NCBI GenBank assembly: GCA_031266185.1
Contig: JAISBM010000027.1
Location: 1 to 37,928, forward strand
Reading direction: 5' to 3'
DNA length: 37,928 nt
DNA from: Endomicrobium sp.
GTDB taxonomy: Bacteria > Elusimicrobiota > Endomicrobiia > Endomicrobiales > Endomicrobiaceae
Position numbers and translations under genes: made by a program. Numbering within the stretch: position 1 is the stretch's first letter; each line of letters opens with the position of its first letter. Shown piece after piece: positions 1 to 37,928 of the stretch. Under the pieces are notes generated by a model. It had not been told where the DNA came from, made no database searches, and saw only the letters and a list, made by a program, of their open reading frames with translations.

Positions 1-118
1 TTGGTTGTTGGTTGTTGGTTGTTGGTTGTTGGTTGTTGGTTGTTGGTTGTTGGTTGTTGGTTGTTGGTTGTTGGTTGTTGGTTGTTGGTTGTTGGTTGTT
101 GGTTGTTGGTTGTTGGTT
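1..118. repeat. Heptanucleotide tandem repeat (TTGGTTG)n, about 17 copies
   Basis: Seven-base unit TTGGTTG (CAACCAA on the other strand) repeats without a mismatch from the first base to 118; the 17th unit breaks with a C at 119. The array starts at the window edge, so its true length is unknown. Because 7 is not a multiple of 3, it reads open in all three forward frames (V-V-G-C-W-L-L), which creates spurious ORFs; I do not regard it as coding. Such arrays change length by replication slippage. It lies beyond the broken 3' end of the fic pseudogene. Confidence 0.97.
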
Positions 119-23085: not shown

Positions 23086-23427
23086 CTATCTACGAACTTC
23101 TTTGTACTTAATTTCAATATCCACGCCAGCAGGCGAGTCTAATTTTTGAAGTTCTTCTACTGTTCTGTTGGAAGGCTCGCAAATGTCTACTAACCTTCTA
23201 TGGATTCTCATTTCGAACTGTTCACGAGATTTTTTGTCCGTGTGAACAGACCTGTTAACTGTATACTTTTTTATGCTTGTAGGCAAAAGTACAGGCCCTG
23301 TTATAGCTACACCTGTACGCCTTGCAGTTTCTACTATTTTAGCAAGAAAATCGTCTAACATTTTATGATCGTAGGCCCGTAACTTGATTCTTAAATCTTG
23401 ATTTTGTACTGTCTTTTCATTTCCCAT
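23086..23427 (-). CDS. rpsJ: 30S ribosomal protein S10 (NusE)
   Basis: Small-subunit head protein that also joins NusB in transcription antitermination. 113 residues, with about 10 extra N-terminal residues ([10 protein letters not shown]) compared with the usual 102. Core: [40 protein letters not shown] and [20 protein letters not shown]. In many genomes it directly follows tuf; here it follows a tuf remnant. Confidence 0.98.
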
Positions 23428-23495
23428 AAATTTTAATCCTGTTTATTTGATTATACGTTCTTTATATAATTTACATAAATAAAAACATTTAAAAG

Positions 23496-23624
23496 TCAAG
23501 CAGATTGCTTATCACCCAACACCTTCGTGACCACCGCTGTAACGTCGTCTTGCCATGATCTACGTGCCCTATCGTCCCCTATGTTTACGTACGGCTTGCT
23601 CCTGTCAAATTTCATCTTTGCCAT
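23496..23624 (-). pseudogene. tuf: EF-Tu gene remnant (first ~40 codons)
   Basis: The ATG at 23624 opens with MAKMKFDRSKPYVNIG, the EF-Tu start. Then the frame slips: an extra G in GGGG (near 23578-23582) puts the P-loop in another frame, where GTIGHVDHGKTTL reads perfectly. A missing base after TTA restores the original frame for TAVVTKVLGDK. A stop (TGA, 23496-23498) follows at once, and switch I onward is gone. As an uninterrupted ORF it encodes only 42 residues with the P-loop scrambled. It sits exactly where tuf belongs, between fusA and rpsJ. EF-Tu is essential, so an intact copy must lie elsewhere. The SD-like GGGAG upstream is still visible. Codons here are more GC-rich than the neighbours. 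Confidence 0.92.
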
Positions 23625-23640
23625 TTTTAGTCTCCCTACC

Positions 23641-25716
23641 TTATATTTTTTTCTCTAATATCTTGTCTGCAATTTGTTTTGGTACTTCTTCATAGTGAGA
23701 AGGTTCCATACTATAGTTTCCTCTTCCCTGAGTTAAAGAACGAAGTGATGTTGAATAACCAAACATATCTGCAAGAGGAACATTCGCTTTTATATGCTGT
23801 ACTTTATTTTTTGAGTCCATGCTAGAAATTTTGCCACGCCTTGAGTTTAAATCACCAATAACGTCACCCATATATTCTTCAGGTACCACCACTTCTGTTC
23901 TCATAATAGGCTCTAAAATGACAGGATTTGCTTTTTTGCAAGCGTCTTTAAAAGCCATTGAACCTGCAATTTTAAACGCCATTTCTGAAGAGTCAACTTC
24001 GTGGAAAGAACCGTCTCTAACTGTAACCTTAATATCAACTACAGGATATCCTGCCAAAACGCCAGAAGTCATAGCTTCTTTTATACCTTTATCAATTGCT
24101 GGAATATATTCTCTAGGAATTACACCGCCAACAATTTTGTTTACAAACTCATAACCTTTACCCGGCTCTTGAGGTTCTACTGTAAGAACAACGTGCCCAT
24201 ATTGACCACGCCCGCCTGTCTGTCTAATATATTTAGATTCTGCTTCTTGAGCTTTTTTGATTGTTTCTCTGTAAGCAACTTGAGGTCTTCCTACATTAGC
24301 CTGGACATTAAATTCTCTTTTCATTCTGTCCACGAGAATTTCTAGATGAAGTTCGCCCATGCCCGCAATAATAGTTTGGTTTGTTTCTTCGTTTGTTTTA
24401 ACTCTAAAAGTCGGATCTTCTTCTGCAAGTCTGCTTAAAGCAATACCTAACTTTTCTTCGTCTGCTTTGGATTTAGGTTCAATTGCAACGTCTATGACAG
24501 GGTCTGGGAAATCCATAGACTCAAGGAGAATCGGGTTTGCTTCGTCACAAAGAGTATCGCCTGTGCTTGTGTTTTTTAAACCTACAGCAGCGGCAATATC
24601 TCCAGCATTTACAGACTTTATTTCTTCTCTATTGTTTGAGTGCATGCGCACTATACGAGAAATTCTTTCTTTTGCATTTTTGCCAGGATTATAAACATAA
24701 GAACCACTTTCTAACGTGCCAGAGTAAACTCTAAAATATGTAAGTTTCCCTATGTACGGATCTGCTTGTAGTTTAAACGCCAAAGCGCTAAAAGGAGCTT
24801 TATCGTCAACATCTCTAGAATCGACTTCTTCTGTGTCTGGATTTGTACCTTTAAACGCTTTTCTGTCAAGCGGTGACGGCAAATAATCACATACTGCATT
24901 CAACATCGGCTGTACACCCTTATTTTTAAACGCTGTTCCGCAAAGTGTTGGGATTAATTTTATTTGAAGTGTTGCAGTTCTGATTGCTTGTTTTATTTGT
25001 GCTACTGTTGACTCTTTGCCTTCCATAAAGTTAGTCATTATTGTGTCGCTATAATCTGCAAGAAGTTCTATCATTTCATTGCGCATGTGGTGCGCTTTTT
25101 CTTCTAACTCTTTTGGAATGTCTGTTATCTCAAAACTAGCTCCAAGCTCTTCGCCATTCCAAATGTAAGCTTTCATTGTAACCAAATCTACTATTCCTTG
25201 AAAACTAGACTCTGCTCCAATAGGAATTTGAATAGGAAGAGGAGTCGCTCCAAGCTTTTCTCTTATATCTTTTATAACCATAAAAAAATCTGCGCCAATT
25301 TTATCCATCTTGTTTGAAAAAACAATTCTTGGCACACCATATTTGTCTGCCTGTCTCCAAACAGTTTCAGATTGAGGTTCTACACCATTACCAGAATCAA
25401 AAACAACAACAGCGCCGTCTAAAACTCTTAAAGATCTTTCTACTTCTGCAGTAAAGTCCACGTGTCCTGGAGTGTCGATAATATTAAATTGCATCTCTTG
25501 CCATTTGCAATAAGTTGCAGCAGAGGTGATTGTGATACCTCTTTCCTTTTCTTGTTCCATCCAGTCCATAGTTGCAGCACCTTCGTGCACTTCGCCAATT
25601 TTGTGCGTTCTGCCAGTATAATATAAAATTCTTTCTGTTGTGGTAGTTTTGCCCGCGTCAATGTGAGCAGCAATACCAAAATTTCTAATATTGCTTAAAG
25701 GATATTCTCTAGCCAT
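23641..25716 (-). CDS. fusA: Elongation factor G
   Basis: GTPase that drives tRNA-mRNA translocation and ribosome recycling. 691 residues, standard length. G1 [20 protein letters not shown]2/switch [14 protein letters not shown]3 DTPGHVDF, G4 NKMD; then domain II, and domain IV with [11 protein letters not shown] and the C-terminal [13 protein letters not shown]. One intact bacterial-type copy. It follows orf50 by 34 nt and is trailed 16 nt later by the tuf remnant. Confidence 0.99.
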
Positions 25717-37231: not shown

Positions 37232-37249
37232 CTATATTCAAGATTTAAT

Positions 37250-37364
37250 CCGGCAGCGACCTACTCTCCCAGGACCCTGCGGTCCAAGTACCATCGGCCC
37301 TGATGGGCTTAACTTCCGAGTTCGGAATGAGATCGGGTGTGACGCCATCGGAATAACCACCGGA
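37250..37364 (-). rRNA. rrf: 5S ribosomal RNA
   Basis: About 115 nt, with the terminal helix CCGGTGGTTA at the start and TCGCTGCCGG at the end on the minus strand. The conserved CCGAACTCGGAAGTTAAG and GGGAGAGTAGG of bacterial 5S are present. It follows 23S by about 80 nt. Ends are accurate to a few bases. Confidence 0.97.
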
Positions 37365-37446
37365 AATAGTTTTAAATTAAAGAACACAATTAAAAACTTA
37401 ATATAGGTAAACCAACTGACATATTATATCACAAAGATTAGAAAAT

Positions 37447-37928
<482 letters not shown>

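Follow-up and report, generated by a model that had tools for sequence, protein, structure and literature searches.

The window, a stretch of 37,928 nucleotides from an Endomicrobium sp. assembly (GCA_031266185.1, contig JAISBM010000027.1), carries on its minus strand an intact fusA (EF-G; 23641–25716) and, beyond it in the direction of transcription, an intact rpsJ (S10; 23086–23427). Between both genes lies an ORF of 42 codons (23496–23624, minus strand), whose 42-aa product reads MAKMKFDRSKPYVNIGDDRARRSWQDDVTAVVTKVLGDKQSA and which appears to be a pseudogene remnant of tufA. The ORF retains an ATG start and is preceded by a tufA-type 5′ leader (23625–23640, minus strand) with GGTAGGGAG, ribosome-binding-like by eye; this leader is shared with the fusA-linked tuf of the related genome G016 and differs from the tufB leader. 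The segment 23508–23624 (minus strand) is assigned to EF-Tu codons 1–39 by alignment against the genome's own intact tuf and against the related genomes G029, G016 and G059. The last three codons of the ORF (QSA) and its stop come not from tuf but from the original tuf–rpsJ spacer (23428–23507, minus strand), as delimited by alignment with the tuf–rpsJ spacers of G016 and G059. Relative to that tuf, the stub carries an additional G within a GGGG run (about 23576–23579) and lacks one A (about 23540); between these two indels, codons 17 to approximately 28 are read out of frame, after which the original frame resumes. The initial annotation had described a frameshifted EF-Tu stub of 40 codons at the canonical fusA–rpsJ site, with +1 and −1 shifts that cancel each other and leave a single 42-residue ORF; the alignment with the genome's own tuf bears this out, except that the extent is refined to 39 tuf codons plus three spacer codons.

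The stub matches the intact tuf of its own genome with 93% identity over 121 bases (E 1e-44), far beyond chance. A horizontal origin or contamination is rejected in view of this match. The stub keeps only 39 of the 399 tuf codons, with the P-loop out of frame and the G domain absent. Its product matched no Pfam family at E 1, and it was not among the four matches returned by a search of its own genome with the EF-Tu model TIGR00485. In the stub region, a promoter scan gave two promoter-like sites, both on the other strand, against 1.2 expected from shuffled sequence, and a terminator scan found none. Searching E. coli genomes with the same region yielded no hits and was hardly informative.

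The genome that holds the window (G000) comprises 827,877 bases in 28 contigs and is 52% complete. Among named organisms, its fusA is most similar to those of Endomicrobium sp. Hm464_bin172 (90%) and Ca. Endomicrobium labiotermitis (89%), which places the bacterium near Endomicrobium, a genus with symbionts in the termite gut. A search for an intact tuf elsewhere in this genome found one on contig C24 (14452–15645), a gene of 399 codons that scores 697.2 bits against the TIGR00485 cut-off of 522.4 and is the only tuf above that cut-off. It is preceded by tRNA-Tyr, tRNA-Gly and tRNA-Thr and followed by tRNA-Trp, and the protein next beyond it is, we presume, NusG. This is a tufB-type site, as in the tufB operon of Gammaproteobacteria, where tRNA genes for Tyr, Gly and Thr likewise precede tufB (PMC8046335). 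A second intact tuf could conceivably lie elsewhere in a genome that is 52% complete; it is disfavoured because G029, which is 99% complete, has a single tuf above the family cut-off. As a separate observation on gene order, the usual rplKAJL run appears to be split in G000: the proteins after tuf and nusG on C24 read as what we take to be RplK and RplA, and the window carries 23S and 5S rRNA genes on its minus strand (37248–37928), directly downstream of which stands a run that is presumably rplJ-rplL-rpoB-rpoC. At the contig end (window positions 1–118), the 7-base unit TTGGTTG is repeated perfectly about 17 times.

The same site in G029 also carries a stub, between fusA and rpsJ (C31:36266–36412), and the intact tuf of that genome is on another contig, C32. 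Both stubs share 83% identity over the 145-bp query; their junction is identical, the sequence differs by 17%, and neither has the indels of the other. The ORF of the G029 stub starts with GTG and has 45 codons, compared with ATG and 42 codons in G000, and its P-loop is altered, with the last third out of frame, as against a P-loop that is out of frame in G000. In a tree of 14 concatenated proteins from 17 genomes, from which rpmC was excluded and in which genomes without fusA-side sequence were entered with gaps, G000 and G029 are sisters (UFBoot 100), followed by G016 (98) and G059 (100). Synonymous divergence between both sisters is 0.06–0.12 across nine neighbouring genes. Thus, the proposal in the initial annotation that tuf was duplicated and that this copy was lost is sustained both by the intact gene at the tufB-type site and by the orthologous, decaying stub in G029.

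The way in which the gene was truncated can be read from its junction. In the tuf–rpsJ spacer of G016, GGGTGATAAG begins 8 nt past the tuf stop, and the identical 10 bp occupy nt 108–117 of the intact tuf in G000 and G029. The window contains a single copy of GGGTGATAAG at this locus (23508–23517, minus strand), where tuf-like sequence meets spacer-like sequence, which would be the sole remaining copy of a direct repeat and would mark the deletion junction. On these coordinates, a repeat-to-repeat deletion amounts to 1,101 bp. Immediately past the junction, the spacers of G000, G029, G016 and G059 closely resemble one another; the tuf of G016 itself reads GGGGGAGC at the left repeat position, so that no single genome shows both repeats. 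From these sequences, with the pre-deletion spacer taken from G016, we infer that the stub arose when about 1.1 kb was deleted between two 10-bp direct repeats. Bacterial deletions between short direct repeats leave one copy at the junction, with the interval missing; the stub is alike in both respects and has nothing notable to set it apart, other than that one of the repeats lies inside the tuf coding sequence.

It is thus highly probable that the stub is a tufA pseudogene that arose through deletion at this repeat, with tufB retained and the remnant decaying neutrally. The ancestor would have had two tuf copies, tufA after fusA and tufB after the tRNA cluster. In the lineage of G000 and G029, the 10-bp repeat at tuf nt 108–117 may have misaligned with the one 8 nt past the stop, and one repeat copy and everything in between, about 1,101 bp, would have been removed, joining 39 codons to the spacer that precedes rpsJ. 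Because the repeat is short, the route was probably replication slippage or another RecA-independent misalignment. This could have happened once in the common ancestor of G000 and G029 or, less likely, once in each of them. Thereafter, tufB would have supplied all EF-Tu, and the remnant would have been free to mutate, each species gathering its own substitutions and indels. The frame of the G000 stub would remain open because the remnant is short and the two indels happen to cancel.

A variant that is compatible with this explanation supposes that G000 and G029, once separated, each underwent a deletion of its own at this 10-bp repeat; it seems improbable, yet deserves to be taken seriously. 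At tuf nt 48, the G029 stub and the tufB of G029 share a T that is absent from the intact copies of G000, G016 and G059, and at nt 69 each stub matches its own tufB, so that each stub resembles the tufB of its own genome at both sites. Moreover, no substitution within the 37 codons compared is common to both stubs and absent from the four intact copies, and the repeat would give an identical junction twice. However, for two sister species a single event is the simpler assumption, the T common to the G029 stub and its tufB at nt 48 may stem from a parallel change in a fast-decaying stub or from tufB having later converted the stub, and the intact copies of G016 and G059 likewise differ from each other at nt 69. 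A single old deletion with no conversion afterwards does not predict the match at nt 48; the pattern at both sites is suggestive of conversion subsequent to the species split or of two separate deletions, and parallel change may also account for it. The fuller version, in which tufA was deleted independently in both sisters by the same repeat, each time during ongoing tufA/tufB conversion, is a little less likely still; if true, a chance repeat arising from the codons of tuf itself would represent a way out of concerted evolution that is taken repeatedly. Conversion tracts may also still pass between the remnant and tufB, with the remnant as donor or acceptor.

The neutral decay proposed for the tufA remnant was assessed by scoring stub changes over 37 codons against a majority reference of four intact copies (G000, G029, G016 and G059). 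The G000 stub has six changes (three nonsynonymous, three synonymous) and the G029 stub 15 (ten and five). Seven of the eight synonymous changes are shared with some intact copy, and the private changes, 3 in G000 and 11 in G029, comprise 13 nonsynonymous and 1 synonymous. Over the same 37 codons, the intact tufB genes of G000 and G029 show no nonsynonymous and six synonymous changes (Fisher test against 13:8 in the stubs, p 0.016), and over the whole gene, 7 and 38 (p 0.0003). About 78% of changes are expected to be nonsynonymous without constraint, compared with 62% of all stub changes (13/21) and 93% of the private ones. These comparisons of sequence fit an absence of constraint, the numbers being small; on the other side stand the 62% for all stub changes, lower than expected, and the smaller private count of the G000 stub.

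The same data bear on whether the 42-codon ORF could be a functional small gene, or a leader peptide that couples the translation of fusA and rpsJ, which is very unlikely. Both species have indeed retained the leader, an open frame and a start codon, which is ATG in G000 and GTG in G029. However, the strong excess of nonsynonymous private substitutions, the different products and the P-loops that are out of frame or altered argue against such a role, and, as regards protein families, the G000 product has none in Pfam, whereas the G029 product only gives an EF-Tu match below the curated cut-off. The open frame itself means little, because random substitutions mostly leave the stub open: it survived in 88% of trials with five changes and in 72% with 13, in a model confined to substitutions. 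A short ORF kept by purifying selection in a relative, which would have contradicted the pseudogene reading, was looked for and not found; in G029, the one relative that bears the stub, the amino-acid sequence is not conserved and the stub decays.

The fusA–rpsJ gap was also compared across the genus, in 41 genomes including G000. An rpsJ match was obtained in 35 of them and the rpsJ loci of 30 were examined, the other 11 genomes remaining outside the count. These 30 loci comprise 2 stubs (G000 and G029), 8 full tuf genes (G012, G064, G032, G018, G027, G017, G007 and G031), 16 contigs that end within the 3′ part of tuf, and 4 without a tuf match (G015, G023, G024 and G014), although in G014 the final codons of tuf can be made out by eye. 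Thus, all or the end of tuf stands upstream of rpsJ in 24/30 loci, and fusA, a full tuf and rpsJ occur together on one piece in 5/30. No further stub was seen among the 30 loci, some of which are cut by contig ends. On the other side of the break, 7 of 14 fusA- or tufB-side pieces run through fusA into 33–38 tuf codons and then reach the contig end (G016, G004, G009, G019, G018, G063 and G012). Contig ends inside tuf are expected where two near-identical copies collapse, and G064 has two tuf copies identical over 1,197 nt. Because of these contig ends and this identical pair, two homogenised tuf copies are likely to be the ancestral state.

Such breaks are also what could make the stub itself suspect, if an assembler confused by near-identical tuf copies had skipped one. 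The contigs of relatives that end within tuf at this place and the self-inverted, chimera-like tuf end of G020 lend some substance to this concern, but the probability of an artefact is minimal. In each of two separate genomes, the stub is internal to a contig; the junction is shared but the decay is not, with a 17% difference in sequence and different indels, and the stub is therefore not regarded as an assembly error; furthermore, a product made from tufB would copy tufB.

Three other loci in the genus are unusual. In G023 (C8; L201, 15611–16344), a damaged tuf follows fusA, lacks codons about 56–135, has a stop at the join and runs to the contig end, which possibly represents an independent decay of tufA or an assembly fault. 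In G031 (C4; L194, 3799–5118, and L132), tuf follows tRNA-Thr, as at the tufB site, and is itself followed by rpsJ, as at the tufA site, an arrangement that is either a recombinant of the two tuf loci or a misassembly. In G024 (C38; L125, 1–150), the start of what is by eye an L33-like gene, which in G000 sits after tufB, is found before rpsJ, which also hints that sequence may have passed from one tuf locus to the other.

In 2001, Lathe and Bork reportedly described the differential loss of duplicated tufA and tufB genes. The stub of the window is an ordinary pseudogene, although an unusually clear example. Loss of single tuf copies is a known phenomenon (PMC6053082), and the present case is alike in that an ancient tuf pair lost one copy in a lineage and that the pair is kept similar by conversion in others, here G064; it differs in having been caught early, with the remnant, the junction and the likely causative repeat still readable. 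Decaying genes are also common in Endomicrobium symbionts, with 10 to 37 annotated pseudogenes per genome in five draft genomes (PMC8809381), whereas the gene lost here is a redundant copy of an essential one; the term "elongation factor" is absent from the main text of that source. No report of this tuf stub was found in the literature searched, mostly papers free of subscription, which is weak evidence that it is unreported. Its interest would lie in offering a clean and recent example of how the state of two homogenised tuf genes can be left, through a chance short repeat, one deletion and neutral decay. Moreover, its persistence in both sisters could make the remnant useful for dating the loss and as a neutral standard for mutation in these symbionts. 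The reductive evolution invoked in the initial annotation is plausible as a setting, but not specific, given that a full tuf after fusA persists in two smaller genomes, G017 (0.5 Mb) and G027 (0.6 Mb).

The base composition of the stub leads to a different question. The stub has a GC content of 0.49, close to the 0.47 of the intact tuf, compared with 0.38 in both fusA and rpsJ and 0.35 in the window, so the stub is indeed richer in GC than its flanks, as the initial annotation had noted. However, its attribution to the codon use of a once highly expressed gene does not hold: fusA, rpsL, rplB and rpsJ, which belong to the same operons and should be highly expressed, have a GC3 of only 0.24–0.32, and codon use for high expression is rejected as the cause, fusA and the ribosomal genes measured being without it. 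The GC3 of tuf is 0.52, against 0.21–0.35 in 15 window genes measured, including fusA, rpsL and rplB. Purines occupy 80% of the fourfold sites of tuf (A 0.40, G 0.40, C 0.05), the next-highest value being 54% among 60 ORFs from the window and a 20-kb stretch around tuf. The GC-richness of the stub is the composition of tuf itself, whose third positions are rich in A and G. Conversion with a GC bias between the tuf copies is likewise unsupported, because it is G and A that are in excess at fourfold sites, C remaining at 0.05.

This purine-rich synonymous codon use of tuf (G000:C24:14452-15651) is an oddity that deserves more attention than the stub. Beyond the genus, fourfold purines in tuf exceed those in fusA by at least 0.16 in 9/11 genomes of the same order, class or phylum, the exceptions being G054 and G057. 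Among named loci, 31/80 hold both tuf and fusA, and the excess reaches 0.40 in L034 (Endomicrobium), 0.36 in L037 (Elusimicrobia) and 0.24 in L070; in the other 28 of the 31 it ranges from −0.14 to 0.11, including two Elusimicrobiaceae (L050, 0.10; L057, 0.11). In very small genomes, the tuf purine excess is absent in G017 and G021 and present in G027 (0.66 versus 0.46 in fusA).
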